Assembly: GCA_002215645.1 (NCBI GenBank)
Contig: NGFI01000005.1
Span: 302,678 to 366,677 of the forward strand
DNA: 64,000 nucleotides
Source: Gemmatimonadetes bacterium 2013_60CM_65_52
GTDB lineage: Bacteria; Gemmatimonadota; Gemmatimonadetes; Gemmatimonadales; Gemmatimonadaceae
Direction of reading: 5' to 3'
A program made the position numbers and the translations under genes. The notes below the pieces were generated by a model. The model was given only the letters and a program-made list of their open reading frames with translations. It made no database searches and was not told where the DNA came from. This document shows positions 3,350 through 13,700 of the stretch, one piece after another (positions within the stretch are counted from its first letter, which is position 1; each line of letters opens with the position of its first letter).

Positions 3350-3358
3350 AGAACGAAA

Positions 3359-3787
3359 ATGACCACGGTCTTCTTCGACATCGGCATCTCGCTGGACGGA
3401 TTCATGGCCGGACCCAATCGTGGTCCGCACAATCCGCTCGGCGACGGCGGCGTGAGTATGCATCAGTGGATGTTTCGTACGACGTTCGGCCGCGAGCGGC
3501 TGGGCATTCCGGGCGACGGCGGCGAGACGTCCGCTGACAATGAGCTGTTGCGTGGCGTCTTCGAGCGCACCGGCGCGTACATCATGAGGCGCAGGATGTT
3601 CGAGGAAGGGGGGCCCAACTGGCCCGAGAACGCGCCTTTTCGTGCGCCCGTGTTCGTGCTCACGCATCAGCCGCGCGATCCCTGGGCACGCAAGGGCGCG
3701 CGTCCAGCGACGTTCGACATCGAGCAATCCGCGATCAGCTCATCGCCGCACGTTGCGCACGTGAGCTATCGAGTCAAGCGACAATAG
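3359..3787 (+). CDS. Dihydrofolate reductase/RibD-type protein with an internal deletion
   Basis: The N-terminal part (about residues 1-112) matches the RibD C-terminal / DHFR-like family: FFDIGISLDGFMAGPNRG, an NELLRGVFERTGAYIMRRRMF helix region, and VFVLTHQPRDPWARKG. Members of this family are normally about 190-210 residues. Here the sequence jumps at about residue 113-115 directly to what looks like the family's extreme C-terminus (IEQSAISSSPHVAHVSYRV). Roughly 65-75 residues, including the part that completes the nucleotide-binding sheet, appear to be missing while the frame is kept. It starts nine bases after the binding-protein stop codon. I expect a non-functional or altered product; the frame itself is intact. 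Confidence 0.65.
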   Translation: MTTVFFDIGISLDGFMAGPNRGPHNPLGDGGVSMHQWMFRTTFGRERLGIPGDGGETSADNELLRGVFERTGAYIMRRRMFEEGGPNWPENAPFRAPVFVLTHQPRDPWARKGARPATFDIEQSAISSSPHVAHVSYRVKRQ

Positions 3788-3797
3788 GACTGTCCTA
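3785..3797. terminator. Palindrome shared by two convergent stop codons
   Basis: TAGGACTGTCCTA is a near-perfect palindrome (6+1+6). Its left TAG is the stop codon of the DHFR-like gene and its right CTA is the complement of the DoxX stop codon, so the convergent genes end seven bases apart inside one hairpin. There is no U-tract. It may act as a short bidirectional terminator or simply be coincidental. Confidence 0.3.
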
Positions 3798-4307
3798 CAC
3801 TGTTATTGGCGTGCGGCGCATGAGAACGTTCACCACGCCGCCGAGTGCTCCGACGACCAGCACGACCTCCCTCAAGCGCGGCGTCCAGATTCTGTCGATG
3901 CCGAACACACCGTCGAGCGAGTACGCACCAAACCCCACGAGCGCCAGTGCGACGGCTGCAGCCGCGTAGAGCGCCGGAATCTCGATGCCGTTCGTCGCCG
4001 CGAAGATGCCGTTGCCCCAGTGCACCGTGACCGCCGCCACGATCATGACGGAGACGATCAGCGCGGGACCGATGGGCCCCAGCAGTCCGAGCACGACGAG
4101 CAGTCCGCCGGTGGTCTCCGTGGCCGATGCAACTGCGGCCAGGACGTGCCCGGGCCGAAAGCCGAGCTGCACGAAGAACTCTCCGGTCTTGGTGAGTCCA
4201 TATCCGCCGAACCATCCCGCGAGCTTCTGCATTCCGTGTCCGGCCATGAGAAGGCCGAATACCACCCTCAAAATGAGAAGCCCGATGTCGCTGCTGGTGT
4301 GAGTCAT
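3795..4307 (-). CDS. DoxX family membrane protein
   Basis: A 170-residue inner-membrane protein with four predicted helices. The first contains the family motif LLILRVVFGLLMAGHGMQKLAGWFGG; the second region has ETTGGLLVVLGLLGPIGPALIV followed by a VHWGNGIFAATNGIEIPALYAAAAVALALVG stretch, as in DoxX/DUF4870-like quinol-associated proteins. The family has been linked to thiol and redox stress in other bacteria, but no enzymatic activity can be read from the sequence. It is divergently transcribed from the AraC-type regulator at 4388, with only 80 bp between them, so the regulator may control it. It converges on the DHFR-like gene with a shared stop-codon palindrome. Confidence 0.88.
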   Translation of the reverse strand: MTHTSSDIGLLILRVVFGLLMAGHGMQKLAGWFGGYGLTKTGEFFVQLGFRPGHVLAAVASATETTGGLLVVLGLLGPIGPALIVSVMIVAAVTVHWGNGIFAATNGIEIPALYAAAAVALALVGFGAYSLDGVFGIDRIWTPRLREVVLVVGALGGVVNVLMRRTPITV

Positions 4308-4387
4308 TGGAGTCCGATTCCGGTGCGGTTTGCCATTGTGCTTCCTGCGCCCGATGTCTAATCTGCTGAAACCAGTCTGGATGATCT

Positions 4388-5380
4388 ATGGCCAAAAAGC
4401 TTGAAAACATGTCCGAAGCTCCAGGACATGAGGACGCTGAGATAGACGTCGTGTCAGAGGTCCTTGGCGCCGTTCGTCTCACGACCGACGTCCTCGGCCG
4501 CTTCGAGCTCGGTGCGCCCTGGGCGTTTCGATCGGATCGAGGCGGCGCCGTTGCGCTCTACGTGATGGCACGCGGAAGCGCGACGCTCGAGCTTCTCGAG
4601 AAGACACGCGGCATGCCTAGTGTTTTCGCGCTCTCTGCCGGAGACGTCGCAGTGCTGCCGCACGGCGCGCCGCACTTGCTGCGCGATCCTGGCGCCGGTC
4701 CGCGCCGCGCGCTGACTTCCGCCGACCTGGCTTGCCGCCGTGGTATGCAGCCCGGGCCCACACGTTTCGGTGGCAGTGGTCCGGTGACCAGCTTCGTCGC
4801 GGGTGCGTTTCACTTCGGCGCCGCGCCGCGGAGCGTGCTGCTCGAGTCGCTGCCGAGCGTGCTGCATCTCGTGTCGGGCGCTGTGTCCATGTCGCCGCAA
4901 GCGGCGGCGACCGTCCAGATGATTCTCGCGGAGAGTGCCGCGCCCGGACCGGGAAGTGCCATGATGATGGCGCGGCTCGCGGACATCATTCTCGTTCACG
5001 CGTTGCGCACACAAACGTGCGCTGCCGGAAAGGCGCACGGCGGACTGTGCGCGCTTGCTGATCCCTCCATCGGTGGCGCACTGCGCCTCATCCACGCGCG
5101 TCCGGCAGAGCCATGGACCGTATACACAATGGCGGCCGCAGTTGGCATGTCGCGCTCGGCCTTCGCGGCGCGGTTTTCCGAGTTGGTGGGTGAATCGCCA
5201 CTCAAGTACCTGACGCGCTGGCGGATGACACAAGCAGCGGAACTGCTGCGCGATCAGCGGGAGCCTGTTGCCCGCATTGCCGAGCGTGTGGGTTACGGAA
5301 ATGCCGCGGCGTTCATGAAGGCTTTTACACGCGTACAGGGGATGGGGCCGGGGGAGTTTCGTAAGACGGTAGGGCGGTAG
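4388..5380 (+). CDS. AraC family transcriptional regulator with N-terminal cupin domain
   Basis: A 330-residue regulator. Residues about 20-200 form a cupin-type sensor domain, with a GDVAVLPHGAPHLLRDP segment that is the classic second cupin motif. Residues about 225-325 are an AraC double helix-turn-helix, with AAAVGMSRSAFAARFSELVGESPLKYLTRWRM as the first half and ARIAERVGYGNAAAFMKAFTRVQGMGPGEFRK as the second. The cupin half matches the AraC cupin_6 group, often found next to small redox or oxidoreductase genes. The divergent DoxX gene is the obvious candidate target, because the two share an 80-bp promoter region. The inducer is not identifiable. Confidence 0.92.
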   Translation: MAKKLENMSEAPGHEDAEIDVVSEVLGAVRLTTDVLGRFELGAPWAFRSDRGGAVALYVMARGSATLELLEKTRGMPSVFALSAGDVAVLPHGAPHLLRDPGAGPRRALTSADLACRRGMQPGPTRFGGSGPVTSFVAGAFHFGAAPRSVLLESLPSVLHLVSGAVSMSPQAAATVQMILAESAAPGPGSAMMMARLADIILVHALRTQTCAAGKAHGGLCALADPSIGGALRLIHARPAEPWTVYTMAAAVGMSRSAFAARFSELVGESPLKYLTRWRMTQAAELLRDQREPVARIAERVGYGNAAAFMKAFTRVQGMGPGEFRKTVGR

Positions 5381-5515
5381 AACCGAGAGCGTTTGTTGTT
5401 GCCTGCCGTCCTACTGTTCTGCCGGTCTGGTCGTACTGGCTAAGGCGACCAAACTGGCGTACGTTAGACCCGCCGAAGTCACCGGTCCGGATCGTCTCGT
5501 TCGAACGGCCAACAG

Positions 5516-8176
5516 ATGGCATCGCCCACGCTCGGCTTTCGTTTCGGCGTCCTCGTCGGAATCATCTTCGCGGGCGTTGCAGTGATTACTCTCGCGCTGA
5601 CCGCGCTGTTTCTCACCGGTCTGCGCGCCATCCCGCCGAGCACCCTTGCCGCTGGGGTGCTGATGCTCATCACGTTGTTTGTCGCCGTCGCACTCGCGGT
5701 CGTGCTCGCGGGGAGTCTCCTCGCTGTCGGTCTTCTCGCGTTCGGCGTCTTCGTCGTGGCGGCCCTCGTCGTCGCTCCGCCGATCGGCATATTGGCCGTG
5801 CTGGTATTCCTGGTACTGCTCGCCCTTGTAAGTGCTGTGGTGGCGAGTCCGTTGAACGTGGCGTTTGGCATCCTACTGCTCCTGCTGCTGCTCATTCCGG
5901 TCGCAGCGCTGGTGGTGGGCATTCTTGGACCTGGTGCGGCACTCGTCGTCATCGCAGTGCTCGGTTACATCGGGCTCGCGCTGGCGCTCGCGTGGTTGTT
6001 GCTTCGCGTGCACCGGATGCCACTCGAGCTGCTTGGCCTCGGCGGCCTGCGGCAGATGCCGTCGATTCCGCTGCCGACGTTGCCGGATTTCATCGACGCG
6101 GTGATGAAGCTCAAGGACAAGGAGGCGCAGGAACAGATTCCGATTCGCGCGTTGACGAACGTCTTTACGCTCGGCGCCGGTACGCTCCATGCGCGCACCG
6201 CGACGGCGCGCACCTTTCTCTTCGAGGATGACGAGGCGAAACAGTACTCCCTCGACTCGCCCGCGCAGTTCGACATGGGGTGGACGACCTTCGGGCAGGT
6301 CGACGTACGGGCGGCTGCGCTCTCGGCCACGTTCGCGGGAGCCCTGACCACTCCAGCCGCAGGATCGGCGCTGTTCTGGCCGAACGTCTCGCGGTACTGG
6401 GGCGCTTTCGGGATCTTGCCGATCAAGGTGGTCACGCAGGCGGATGTGCCGGGTTTCAAGTCCCGTGTGGGTCCCCTGTGGGACGACAACGTGATGGGGC
6501 CGCTGATCCAGAGTATGGCGCTCTTCGTCATCGACATGTCGGTCTTTGCGAGCATCGATCCGCCCACCGCCAGCTCTCCCCGCTTCACGCCCGTAACGCT
6601 TGCGTTTCTCTCTCTGAACGCGCCGACGCCTCTTACACCGACGTTCACGCCGTTCCTCATCCAGGTGTCGGACGGGTCGAACACACAGGTCTACACGACG
6701 ATTCCCACGGGCCTGGTCGCGCCAAGCGCGTGGCTCTATGCGTTGCAAGCACTCAAGGCCTCCACGACCGTGTGGGGCATCTGGCTCGGGCACGTTTACC
6801 GCTACCACATGGTGACGGCCGCGATGCAGATGACGATGTACCAGGGTCTTCCGCGGCGGCACGGAGTGGCACAGGTGCTCGGGCTCCAGTCCAAGTACGT
6901 CATCGGATTCGACGCCGTGCTGCTGCTCGACTGGACGTTCCCGCCGCCGACGTCGTGCGCCACCTCGATCCAGTTCCTCCAGTTGACGGATGCGTTTGCG
7001 GCCGGACGTGCCTTTTTCGACGATGATCCCGAGAGGACACTCGCCGCCCTCGGCATTCCGAAGACGACGTTCTCGAGCCCGCTCTTCCGGTTCCAGGACA
7101 TCAACCTGCCGGATTTCGCGGGGCGGTTGAATGCGGCCAGAGCGAATCCGCTGAGCACGGATTCCATATCGCTTGCACTTCTCGCCGCGCTCGCGCCGAC
7201 TACGACAGCGCTGCTCATCGCATATCTCGGCGGGGAGGACGCTCTGCTCCAGACCGCCCTTGCGACGGATCTCAACGCGCTCATCGCGGGGCCGTCCCTT
7301 GCACCGCTCGTGACCGGCACCGGCATCGTGCTGTCGCCAGATACTGCCGCGGCGGTGGCGGCGGTGACGGCGTTGGCGCCTCCGCCTCCCCCGGGTTCTC
7401 CAGTGCTGACGTCGCTCAATCGGATGCTGCTCCAGGACGCGTATCCGATCGAGCTCTGGATCATGCAGTTCAATCTCTATCCGGTGGCGCACTATGTGGT
7501 GAGCATTTACCGTGCGGCCGCGACATACATCACGGCTGTCGTCGCCGCGCTCTATCCAAGCAATGCCGCCATCATCGCGGACGCGCGGTTGCAGCGGTGG
7601 GTGCTCGCGTCGGCCACGGTCGGCAACGTGCAAGGACTGCCTGTTCCGGTCACCACGACCGCGCAGCTCACGGCCGTGCTTACGAGTCTCATCTACCGCA
7701 TCACGGCGCATGGTCTCGCTCGCCTCGCGCCGGTCGGGAATCCGGGGCTGTCGTGGATCGGCAACTTTCCGCCGTGTCTGGAGGATTCCCGCATTCCCGA
7801 CCCAATTGTGCCGAGCGGCAATCCGCCTGGCTTGTCGCCAAATCTCACGCCGGCGCAGCTGCTCGCCTTCATGCCAAAGGCCGGCACGATCGGTGAGATG
7901 ATCAGCTTCATCTTCGCGTTCGGCTACACCCCTCCGTTCGAGTCGCTCATCCCGGTGACGACCGCAAACACGTCGGGCGGGTCGGATCAGGAGCTGCATC
8001 CATTCGTTGGCTTGCCGGCGGCGTGTGATTCCGCGCTACAGACCTATCGCGCCGCGATCACGGGCTTCATCAGATTCTTCCTGGCCGACCAGAACGCACT
8101 CAACGCGCCGGCGGTGATGAACTTCAGCGCGACGCAGGCGGCGATTCACCAGTGGGAAATGAACATCGAGCAATGA
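5516..8176 (+). CDS. Membrane-anchored lipoxygenase family protein, divergent
   Basis: 886 residues. Residues about 8-165 are a run of hydrophobic helices (five or six spans), which ordinary lipoxygenases lack. Residues about 190-886 align by eye with the lipoxygenase catalytic domain: ALFVIDMSVFASI then RFTPVTLAF and PFLIQV; WLYALQALKAS; the iron-ligand pair H426-x4-H431, followed after exactly 17 residues by H449 where the family has HP; ALYPSNAAIIADARLQRW, matching the YYPSD..v..DpELQ.W block; and the third-ligand His at H732 in ITAHGLARL. Departures are large. The Asn four residues after the third His is Arg736, the C-terminal Ile whose carboxylate ligates iron is absent (ends MNIEQ), and about 120 extra Ala/Pro/Leu-rich residues lie between ligands two and three. 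The next gene begins five bases downstream. Catalysis is doubtful; family membership is likely. Confidence 0.72.
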   Translation: MASPTLGFRFGVLVGIIFAGVAVITLALTALFLTGLRAIPPSTLAAGVLMLITLFVAVALAVVLAGSLLAVGLLAFGVFVVAALVVAPPIGILAVLVFLVLLALVSAVVASPLNVAFGILLLLLLLIPVAALVVGILGPGAALVVIAVLGYIGLALALAWLLLRVHRMPLELLGLGGLRQMPSIPLPTLPDFIDAVMKLKDKEAQEQIPIRALTNVFTLGAGTLHARTATARTFLFEDDEAKQYSLDSPAQFDMGWTTFGQVDVRAAALSATFAGALTTPAAGSALFWPNVSRYWGAFGILPIKVVTQADVPGFKSRVGPLWDDNVMGPLIQSMALFVIDMSVFASIDPPTASSPRFTPVTLAFLSLNAPTPLTPTFTPFLIQVSDGSNTQVYTTIPTGLVAPSAWLYALQALKASTTVWGIWLGHVYRYHMVTAAMQMTMYQGLPRRHGVAQVLGLQSKYVIGFDAVLLLDWTFPPPTSCATSIQFLQLTDAFAAGRAFFDDDPERTLAALGIPKTTFSSPLFRFQDINLPDFAGRLNAARANPLSTDSISLALLAALAPTTTALLIAYLGGEDALLQTALATDLNALIAGPSLAPLVTGTGIVLSPDTAAAVAAVTALAPPPPPGSPVLTSLNRMLLQDAYPIELWIMQFNLYPVAHYVVSIYRAAATYITAVVAALYPSNAAIIADARLQRWVLASATVGNVQGLPVPVTTTAQLTAVLTSLIYRITAHGLARLAPVGNPGLSWIGNFPPCLEDSRIPDPIVPSGNPPGLSPNLTPAQLLAFMPKAGTIGEMISFIFAFGYTPPFESLIPVTTANTSGGSDQELHPFVGLPAACDSALQTYRAAITGFIRFFLADQNALNAPAVMNFSATQAAIHQWEMNIEQ

Positions 8177-8180
8177 CACC

Positions 8181-8906
8181 ATGAATCGAATCTTTGGCTT
8201 CTCCCGCAATGCGGTTGCACTGGTCGGGATCATCCTCGCGATTATTCTCGTCGTGCTCGTGGGAATGATCGTCGTCGGCAGCGCGGCGATCCGGGCCCTC
8301 ATGGCACCGGGGCTGAAGGTGGACGGCGTGAGCCTGCTCGCGCTGCTCGTGACGATCATCGTCCTGCTTGTCGCCGTGTTCGTCCTGCTGTTGGTGTTGT
8401 TCCGGTGCTGCTGCAAGCCGTCAGGGAAGCAAGGCGACGTGCCGCCAGACGTTCTGGCGTTGTTGATTCCGTTAGTCCCGCTCTTCCAACAGATGCCGAA
8501 TCTTCTGCGCGATCTGGGCGTCGCGCTCTATGAGGGCGGCAAGACGGTGACGTGGATACAAGCTCACGTCGACGCCGTCTCATCGGATCTGTCCGCCGCC
8601 GCGGGGACGCTGGCGAATGCCGCCACCTTCCGCGTGCCAGGTCTCATCGACGCCGGAAACGGCCTGTGGCTGGTCGACCCCAATCCTTTCCATGCGAGTC
8701 CGATCAACCCGCTTCAGGATCTTCTTGGAACGCTGACTCAATTGAGTACGCATCTGGCTCTCGCGACTGGTGCTCCGGTAACACTCAATGCGGCGAATCA
8801 GTCGGTTGCGGATGTCGCGAACAAGTTGAGCGAAACGGGACGTGCGTTGGCGCGACTGGCCAACACGTTGCATGCTTCTCCCCCTTCGCCTCCGGAGGCG
8901 CTCTGA
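8181..8906 (+). CDS. Two-span membrane protein of unknown function, companion of the lipoxygenase-like protein
   Basis: 241 residues that I do not recognise as a named family. Two strong membrane segments are visible, at about residues 10-34 (VALVGIILAIILVVLVGMIV) and 50-75 (SLLALLVTIIVLLVAVFVLLLVLF), followed by a cysteine triplet CCCK at the membrane boundary that could be acylated. The remaining 165 residues are hydrophilic with long predicted helices (PLVPLFQQMPNLLRDLGVALYEG; SVADVANKLSETGRALARLANTL) and look like a helical-bundle domain. It begins five bases after the lipoxygenase-like gene, so translational coupling is likely and the two products may form a membrane complex. The first membrane segment resembles that of its neighbour in composition only. 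Confidence 0.6.
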   Translation: MNRIFGFSRNAVALVGIILAIILVVLVGMIVVGSAAIRALMAPGLKVDGVSLLALLVTIIVLLVAVFVLLLVLFRCCCKPSGKQGDVPPDVLALLIPLVPLFQQMPNLLRDLGVALYEGGKTVTWIQAHVDAVSSDLSAAAGTLANAATFRVPGLIDAGNGLWLVDPNPFHASPINPLQDLLGTLTQLSTHLALATGAPVTLNAANQSVADVANKLSETGRALARLANTLHASPPSPPEAL

Positions 8907-8990
8907 ATTGGATAGGACAGCAGGACACATAGGGCGTTGTAGTTGCTCGCGGTCCTACCGGCCTGCTGTCCGACTGTCCTACTTTTCTCG

Positions 8991-10761: not shown

Positions 10762-13700
10762 ATGGGACGCAGGGTTCTTCTCGCGGTTCTGAGTCTGCTC
10801 GCGGCGGCGTCCGCCGCGCAGGCGCAAGCCACCGGACGGATCGTCGGGCGCGTCACGACCGCGGAAGGCGGTCGTCCCGTTGCCGGTGCCGCCGTGGTGC
10901 TCGTGGGCACGACGCGGGGCTCGGTCTCCGATTCGTCCGGCGCATTCTCCCTCGCCAATCTCCCGCCGGGCCTCCACCGGGTGCGGGCACAGCGCATCGG
11001 CTTCATCTCGCTGACGCGGGAGGTCACAGTGTCGGCCGGTGCGGCGACATCGGTCAGCTTCGCGCTGGTTGCGTCGCCGGTGCAGCTGGAGGAGATCAAG
11101 ACGGTCGGGTACGGAACACAGGAAGCGCGCACCGTAACAGGTGCCGTCGCCACGGTATCGGCCGAGCAGATCAAGGACATCGCCACGAGCGATCCGATGA
11201 AGGCGATTCAGGGTCGCGTCCCCGGCGTCGAGATCGTGGCCGGCAACAACGAGCCCGGCACGGGGATGCAGGTCCGCATCCGCGGCGTCCGGTCGATCAC
11301 CGCGAACAACGATCCCCTCTACGTCGTGGACGGCGTACCGATTTCGGGAGGCATTCAGGATTTCAATCCGCAGATCATCGAGTCGGTGGACATCCTCAAG
11401 GACGCCGCCGCCACCGCCATCTACGGGAGCAGAGGCGCGAACGGCGTCATCCTCGTGACCACGAAAAAGGGGCCGCTCGACGGACGCATTCACTCGAACT
11501 ACAGCCTCGACAGCTACTACGGCGCGCAGGATCCCGTGAAGGTCATCAACATGATGAACATGCAGCAGTACGTGCGCATGCTGCAGGACGGGGCGCTCTA
11601 CAACAACGGCGCGATGAACGGCGACACGAGTCTCGCGAAGGTGCTCGCGGGCCAGTCGTTCGTGAACGGCGTGCCGAAGAAGCTCTACGCGTTCAACAAC
11701 AACATCCAGTCCGACTGGTTGCGGACGGTCCTCCAGAACTCGCAGCAGAAAAGCTTCCAGGGGAGCGTGACCGGTTCGAGCCCGGATACGCGCTACACTC
11801 TGTCGGGCAATTACTTCGGGCAGGGTGGTCTCATTCCCGGGCAGGGATACACGCGCGGCGCCGGCTTCGCGTCGGTGGACCACACGTCCGGCCGCCTGCA
11901 CGTGGGACTCAGCGCCAACTCGGCGCGCGTGCAGCAGGACATCGGTGAAAGCGGCGCGGCGTTCGGCTATGCATTGGCGATGGCGCCCTTCGGCTCTCCC
12001 TACAACTACACGAATCCCGATTCAGCCGGTCTCTACGATCCGCGTCCGGACGACGACCAGTTGAACATCAATCCCCTGCTCGAGAACCGCTCGTTCGTGC
12101 GGCAGCGGGTCACCAACCGGATCTTCGGTTCGGCATTCGCCGAGCTGCGGTTGCTGGATTGGATGACGTATCGGATGAATTTTGGACCCGACATCACCAA
12201 CGTCACCGAGGGGTGTTACAACGATCCATGGACGCACGGGCCGTGCGCCAATCCGGGCGCCAACAGCCAGAATCAGGGTGCTCCGCCCCAAGCGTTTCTG
12301 CGTGATTCGAAGGACTTCGCCTACACGCTCGACAATCTGTTGCAGCTTAGCCGAGACGTCGGCACGAAGCAGCACGTCGAGGGCACGCTGCTCTACAGCA
12401 TCCAGCGCGATCAATTCAGCCGCGATTCGCTCTACGCGTCCAACCTGCCGTACAACACGCAGCTCTGGTACGACCTCGGGTCCGGCACGGCCGGGCAGCA
12501 GCTCAGCAGCAGGTCCGAGTGGGCGCTGCGCTCGTACATGGGTCGCGTCAACTACACGCTGCTCGACCGATACACGATCTCCGCTACCGGGCGCAGTGAC
12601 GGATCGAGCCGACTCGCGCCCGATCACAAGTGGGCGTTCTTTCCCTCGGTCGGTCTTTCGTGGCAGCTCGGTGACGAGCCGTTCATGCGGCGCTTCACGC
12701 CGCTGAACATGCTCAAGGTGCGCGGCAGCTATGGGACCACCGGCAACACATCCATCTCGCCGTATCAGACGCAGGGGCTGTTGACGCCGCGGGTCTATTC
12801 CTTCGGCGGAACGGCGGTGCGCGGATATCGTCCAGGCTCGATCCCGAATCCCGACCTCTCATGGGAGAAGACGGATCAGACGGACCTCGGCATCGAGTAC
12901 GCGATGTTCGGTAACCGCGTCTCCGGCAGCTTCGACGCGTATCGCGCAACGACGCACGATCTGCTCCTCCAGCAGGCGCTGCCCGTCAGCTCCGGCTTCA
13001 CGTCGACGTTGCAGAACGTCGGCTCGACGCGGAACCAGGGGCTCGAGCTCTCTGTCTCCACCGTAAATGTGCAGGACTGGCGGGGCGTGCGATGGACCAG
13101 CGACGTCAACTGGAGCCACCAGGAAAACATCATCACGTCGCTCCAGAGCGGGACGCTGTCCAACGTGCTCAACACGTGGTTCGTCGGCTCACCGATCAAC
13201 GTGCTCAACGATCCGCAGCACCAGGTGTTCTACGACTACACGTCGCAGGGCGTGTGGCAGTTCGCCGACACGGCGCTCATGCGGCAGTTCAACTCCACGG
13301 GCTCGACGTTCAAGGTGGGTCAGCCGCGCGTGGCGGACATCAACGGCGACGGCAAGATCGACGCGAACGACCGCTCGATCATCGGGACGTCGTATCCCAA
13401 GTGGACGGGCTCGATGTCGAACCGGTTCACGTTCAAGGGATGGGATCTCTCCTCGCTCATCACGGCGAAGTGGCGCTACACGTTCATCGATGGAACGCCG
13501 CGCGGCATGAACGGGCGCAACGGAGTGTCGGTCATCAACTACTGGACGCCCACGAACCCGACGAACGACAACCCCGCGCCGCAGGTTCCGAACTCGGGGA
13601 ATGACTGGCAATACCACGCCACGATGTACTACCTCGACGGTTCGCACTGGCGCATCCGCAACATCACACTCGGCTACACGGCGGGCGAGCGGCTCGCCGG

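Follow-up and report, generated by a model that had tools for sequence, protein, structure and literature searches.

The window, a stretch of 64,000 nucleotides, holds a reading frame that is open throughout and translates into 886 residues (protein P0001; Table 1), with a GC content at the third codon position of 0.76–0.84, coding-like in every segment including the membrane part. The gene lies in a 5.6-kb insert together with a 142-aa ORF, a DoxX-family protein, an AraC-type regulator and a 241-aa protein. The genes flanking the insert, one for a binding protein and one for an ATPase, belong to what we take, from their families and from linkage in relatives, to be one sugar ABC transporter.

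Table 1. Features of the locus, in window coordinates.
Feature	Position	Strand	Basis or remark
Insert between ABC binding protein and ABC ATPase	3350..8942	.	Flanks adjacent in 15/16 relatives
DoxX-family membrane protein	3795..4307	-	PF07681, 8.6e-18
AraC-type regulator (Cupin_6 + HTH)	4388..5380	+	Domain matches
Lipoxygenase homologue P0001, membrane-anchored	5516..8176	+	Open frame; three-member profile matches lipoxygenases only in PDB
N-terminal membrane domain, residues 1–165, about six hydrophobic helices	5516..6010	+	Hydropathy, charge-free run, low-confidence model
H426-x4-H431, candidate first metal-ligand pair	6791..6808	+	HMMER alignment to lipoxygenase H-x4-H
H449, conserved family His, 18 residues past H431	6860..6862	+	Motif comparison
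Ala-rich insert, residues ~521–651 (~130 aa)	7076..7468	+	Alignment gap; absent from Aureibacter and Aquimarina proteins
H732, candidate third metal ligand	7709..7711	+	Four other lipoxygenases have it one residue later
R736 at His+4, usual fourth-ligand position	7721..7723	+	Arg in 3/3 members
C-terminus I884-E885-Q886	8165..8173	+	Two residues past position aligned with lipoxygenase terminal Ile
241-aa orphan membrane protein, candidate partner	8181..8906	+	4 bp past lipoxygenase homologue
Hairpin after 241-aa gene, possible transcript end	8904..8990	+	RNA fold -33.8 kcal/mol, z -3.1

Of 60 genomes, 17 carried the binding protein, the window genome included, and in 15 of the 16 others an ATPase match lay 7–178 bp away, vs. 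a gap of 5,641 bp in the window genome; in the sixteenth relative (G024), no ATPase match was listed for the contig that carries the binding protein. Among the stretches taken from seven relatives, permease, binding protein and ATPase ran on in six, and binding protein and ATPase in the seventh, where the contig ends; the five inserted genes had no match in these stretches at E ≤ 1e-5. Because the ABC genes are contiguous in relatives, the lipoxygenase homologue was most likely brought in with the 5.6-kb insert. No long repeats of the kind that mark mobile-element ends were found flanking it. Codon-usage distances were 0.109 for the lipoxygenase gene, 0.08–0.10 for the ABC genes, 0.178 for the AraC gene and 0.205 for the 241-aa gene; the reference consisted of five window genes, the ABC genes among them, short genes inflate the distance, and no dating was drawn from these values.

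The insert looks composite, as its AraC/DoxX pair also occurs in two other genomes (G048 and G019). This divergent pair (window 3795–5380) is kept there at 56–60% identity, and the stretches examined carried it without a lipoxygenase homologue. The AraC regulator was considered as a conserved partner and rejected: an AraC gene stands upstream of the Aureibacter relative described below as well, but the two regulators have only 30% identity over the HTH, and in G048 and G019 the one from the window pairs with DoxX instead, so that it is unlikely to control the lipoxygenase homologue. The leftmost gene of the insert, the 142-aa ORF (window 3359–3787), had no Pfam match; its first residues look like those of RibD_C/dihydrofolate-reductase-like proteins, and it is possibly a broken gene. 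Elsewhere in the window, a 158-aa ORF on the reverse strand (196–672) may encode a SET-domain protein, which it resembles in its NHSCNPNC and GEELAYDY motifs.

The 241-aa protein has hydrophobic helices at its N-terminus. It matched no NCBIfam family and no plasmid protein, its sole other match in 179 genomes of the family was weak (E 7.2e-4), and a BLAST comparison with the membrane domain fused to the lipoxygenase homologue gave nothing significant. A defence-system reading was rejected: in PADLOC the lipoxygenase homologue had no match, and the weak value of 0.053 between the 241-aa protein and a membrane part (PycTM) probably reflects chance likeness between hydrophobic helices. The hairpin that follows the gene was not among the hits of a terminator scan.

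Homology to lipoxygenases and distribution of the group

The preliminary description had assigned the reading frame a lipoxygenase-family domain and proposed the Pfam model as a check. Applied to the 886-aa protein itself, the model (PF00305) gave 13.6 bits, under its cut-off of 23.6, and an NCBIfam search returned no family; the best phmmer match in the PDB was human ALOX15B (E 8.6e-4, in two collinear stretches). The Pfam check thus fell short on the protein itself but succeeded on two relatives. One is a 613-aa protein annotated as "lipoxygenase family protein" on plasmid pAT1 of Aureibacter tunicatorum (WP_309942117.1; P0002), which matched the 886-aa protein at E 1e-59 and scored 56.9 bits on PF00305 (1.8e-15); the other comes from an uncultured Aquimarina sp. 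(L005:7920-9836) and scored 68.2 bits (7.1e-19), both above the cut-off. The 886-aa protein is 37% identical to each of them, and they are 54% identical to one another. When a profile of these three members was searched against the PDB, 54 distinct sequences were retrieved at E ≤ 0.01, of which 54 were named lipoxygenases (best 1.4e-17). A control profile, built from only two ordinary bacterial lipoxygenases (P0003 from Nostoc and P0004 from Rhodococcus), scored 23.7 bits on residues 166–886, compared to 8.9 bits for the best among 1000 shuffles of the same residues.

Since the two relatives exceed the PF00305 cut-off and the PDB matches of the profile are all lipoxygenases, the 886-aa protein is, as certainly as sequence can establish, a lipoxygenase homologue, and the family assignment made earlier was borne out by the relatives, the PDB profile and the shuffle control together. 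It is a real, rare and strongly altered lipoxygenase relative. That its motifs are coincidental and the protein no lipoxygenase homologue at all, as the subthreshold Pfam score and the empty NCBIfam search might by themselves suggest, is very unlikely in view of the homology passed on through the two relatives, the PDB matches of the profile and the score of the shuffled residues.

The motifs listed in the preliminary description were recovered in the translation: the H-x4-H pair at 426/431, a further conserved His exactly 18 residues past H431, the RFTPV and PFLIQV strands, the WLYALQALKAS helix and ALYPSNAAIIADARLQRW. The spacings from W406 to H426 (20), from H426 to H431 (5) and from H426 to H449 (23) are identical in the Rhodococcus lipoxygenase. 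The position given for the third His was right, but H449, the conserved "HP" His of the family, is not known to be an iron ligand in the family, and it is followed by G here and by P in the Aureibacter and Aquimarina proteins; the candidate for the third ligand is H732 rather than H449. Within the lipoxygenase domain, the insert of approximately 130 residues is peculiar to the 886-aa protein among the three members.

AlphaFold models of the window protein and the Aquimarina protein, each computed from a two-sequence alignment, reached pLDDT values of only 36.7 and 37.9, respectively, and their coordinates were left out of the reasoning on the metal site. In Foldseek searches with these low-confidence models, 38 of 38 matches of the Aquimarina model at E ≤ 0.001 were lipoxygenases, as were the top six of the window-protein model (7e-3 to 0.2, none at E ≤ 0.001). 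Because TM-scores to lipoxygenases were 0.10–0.20 from both models, the ranking reflects likeness of residues and local structure and not a fold match.

The Aureibacter protein resembles the 886-aa protein along the lipoxygenase domain (37% identity) and shares with it the set of His residues, the Arg in the fourth-ligand place and the C-terminal IHQWxMxIE tail, but has neither membrane helices nor the Ala-rich insert. The Aquimarina protein has the same altered site and an N-terminal hydrophobic helix; it differs in having one helix instead of about six and in lacking the Ala-rich insert. The neighbours of the Aureibacter gene are the AraC regulator mentioned above and an NO-inducible flavohemoprotein, which is encoded directly after it; an alkene reductase gene is found nearby on the opposite strand (L002:7700-8878 and 10918-12018).

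The group appears thinly spread in the collections searched. In two overlapping samples of the phylum, P0001 matched 1 of 298 genomes and the three-member profile 1 of 395, and both times this was the window genome itself. The plasmid search returned one record with P0001 and five with P0002, four of which were distant ordinary lipoxygenases; the phage search with P0002 and the viral contig searches yielded no relatives. A scan of the genome collection found one locus, with two narrow seed patterns, and since these patterns alone were used, absence elsewhere in that collection is weak evidence.

PF00305 was found in three of the 395 phylum genomes, and the other two cases were different types of lipoxygenase. 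The first (L008:58-2634), in a genome of the same family as the window genome (G170), is an 858-aa protein with cyclic-nucleotide-binding and lipoxygenase domains (PF00027 at 6e-25 in two stretches; PF00305 at 24.9 bits, slightly above the cut-off) that ends in ...TNI and is possibly a cNMP-regulated lipoxygenase. The second (L009:784-2328, reverse strand; genome G122) is a 514-aa lipoxygenase relative, slightly below the PF00305 cut-off, with His at the fourth-ligand position and a tail, SIQY, that extends two residues beyond Ile.

The N-terminal membrane domain

Residues 4–166 form a single hydrophobic region on the Kyte–Doolittle scale, which includes 126 consecutive uncharged residues, the longest such run among the 302 open frames of at least 100 residues in the window (runner-up 49). 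The multi-span N-terminal domain of the preliminary description is accordingly present as a polytopic hydrophobic domain. The AlphaFold model, at a low-confidence pLDDT of about 37, places helices at residues 4–35, 41–63, 69–86, 88–109, 112–137 and 139–165, and a Pfam search of residues 1–165 found no family. By the positive-inside rule, R164 and R167, which come after the last helix, would lie inside, and with helices even in number so would both termini; we infer six spans with this topology. At the same threshold, the Aureibacter protein has no hydrophobic helix and the Aquimarina protein a single N-terminal one, followed by basic residues. Because the Aureibacter protein lacks a membrane helix, membrane tethering is no rule of the group.

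The protein might instead be a soluble member that starts at M168 (window 6017), which would leave the hydrophobic stretch outside it: the N-terminal end of the soluble Aureibacter protein aligns at M168, and by eye a clear Shine-Dalgarno sequence is absent at both starts. However, the second codon positions of residues 1–165 are 57% T and 1% A and the third positions GC-rich, a bias typical of a frame that selection has kept as a membrane protein; the uncharged run far exceeds that of the next frame in the window, and the Aquimarina protein likewise begins with a hydrophobic helix. We regard the downstream start as unlikely.

The altered candidate metal site

In a canonical iron lipoxygenase, the position four residues downstream of the third His holds the fourth ligand (Asn, His or Ser), and the carboxylate of the C-terminal Ile binds the metal. 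The three members were compared at these positions with four other lipoxygenases: P0003, P0004 and the two proteins from other genomes of the phylum (L008 and L009). P0003, P0004 and L009 share the H-x4-H pair and its distance to the later conserved His, and in L008 the pair is present with a different residue at the later His position. H732 is kept in all three members, where it follows the Thr of VLT by 9 residues, vs. 10 at the matching position in all four others. At the +4 position, where Asn, His or Ser would be expected, each of the three carries Arg, and in place of a terminal Ile the chain ends in I-E-Q here and in I-E-T and V-E-T in the relatives, an overhang of two residues past Ile/Val, found in 3/3 members when their tails are aligned by eye with the canonical C-terminal Ile. 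Because the fourth ligand and the C-terminus depart from the lipoxygenase rule, it would be unsafe to call the protein a working lipoxygenase and, as two defining features thus differ, we do not claim membership among canonical iron lipoxygenases.

H426, H431, H449, H732, R736 and E885 are identical in 3/3 members at 37–54% identity, which argues for a pocket that is kept and working, with the proviso that "invariant" here refers to the three members known. Arg and the invariant Glu appear as a consistent signature of this three-member group. Judging from the sequences compared, the ligand set drifts in other lipoxygenases too: the fourth position is Ser in ALOX15B, Gly in the Nostoc plasmid protein P0003 and His in L009, and P0003 ends in Gly and L009 in S-I-Q-Y. 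The gene of the Nostoc plasmid lipoxygenase (L003:1970-3811), with its Gly at the fourth-ligand position and terminal Gly, overlaps the next gene.

Proposed function and relation to known lipoxygenases

Taken as a whole, the explanation that we favour, with confidence a little better than even, is a divergent lipoxygenase homologue that is held in the membrane, has a remodelled metal site and oxygenates lipids with the 241-aa protein as its partner. The approximately six N-terminal helices would anchor the protein permanently in the cytoplasmic membrane, with the catalytic domain on the cytoplasmic (inner) face, where it could draw unsaturated acyl chains directly from the bilayer. H426, H431 and H732 would hold a metal, most likely iron. 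R736 would take the place of the Asn, His or Ser that serves as fourth ligand and, being Arg, would be unable to bind iron; the carboxylate normally supplied by the C-terminal Ile would come from E885 or from the displaced C-terminus instead. Such an enzyme would yield an oxygenated (hydroperoxy) lipid, and the 241-aa membrane protein may act as its partner. The substrate is the weakest step of this mechanism: the window genome has one FA_desaturase domain and, as to polyunsaturated fatty-acid synthase, no PfaA over the cut-off, with pieces far below it of a kind also found in 11 of 14 control genomes.

The protein may alternatively have retained the lipoxygenase fold and ceased to oxygenate fatty acids, either as a pseudoenzyme or as an enzyme of other chemistry, for example the conversion of lipid hydroperoxides, and would then employ its altered site to bind a different membrane lipid or for redox chemistry on it. 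Arg at the fourth ligand, the third His shifted by one residue and a C-terminus that no longer offers the Ile carboxylate, all found in each of the three members, would fit such a change, as would the lack of an evident polyunsaturated lipid supply in the genome and the flavohemoprotein encoded next to the Aureibacter gene. Against it stand the three metal-type His kept across 37–54% identity, the carboxylate residue retained beside the C-terminus, and the fourth position that varies between Ser, Gly and His in ALOX15B, the Nostoc protein and L009. We consider this alternative a serious possibility, though one that falls clearly short of an even chance. A bolder form of the oxygenase reading would make the protein the first membrane-built oxygenase of lipoxygenase fold, with a new metal site of three His and the side chain of a Glu near the C-terminus, Arg at the fourth position and a dedicated membrane subunit, which performs non-classical chemistry on bilayer lipids; in this strong form, we find it doubtful.

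To our knowledge, lipoxygenases described so far are either soluble or secreted enzymes that reach the membrane from outside. The best solved relatives, found with the profile or with the Aureibacter sequence, are human ALOX15B (PDB 4nre, 7laf) and soybean lipoxygenase-1. They share with the 886-aa protein the H-x4-H pair, the HP-type His and the helix ahead of the third His, but are soluble, use N or S for the fourth ligand and end in Ile, in contrast to the Arg and the longer tail found here. Among bacterial enzymes of solved structure, the lipoxygenase of Enhygromyxa salina (PDB 8x8f) and LoxA of Pseudomonas aeruginosa (PDB 4g32/5ir5) are the points of reference, and the three-member profile matches 8x8f and 4g32. 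LoxA is described as periplasmic (PMC11011848), and MF-LOX1 of Myxococcus fulvus as a bacterial lipoxygenase with His/His and His/Asn ligand clusters (PMC6612559); in the excerpts available from these two articles, no mention of membrane spans in either enzyme was found. Likewise, no description of a polytopic or integral-membrane bacterial lipoxygenase was recognised in the portions of the open-licence literature available to us.

Since it is kept in three distant bacteria, the altered site would put to the test which ligands are truly required by the lipoxygenase fold. Human 5-lipoxygenase requires a separate small membrane protein, FLAP, to form leukotrienes in intact cells (PMC11011848); a lipoxygenase and a membrane domain united in one chain would offer a direct model of how a lipid is handed over from the bilayer to the active site.
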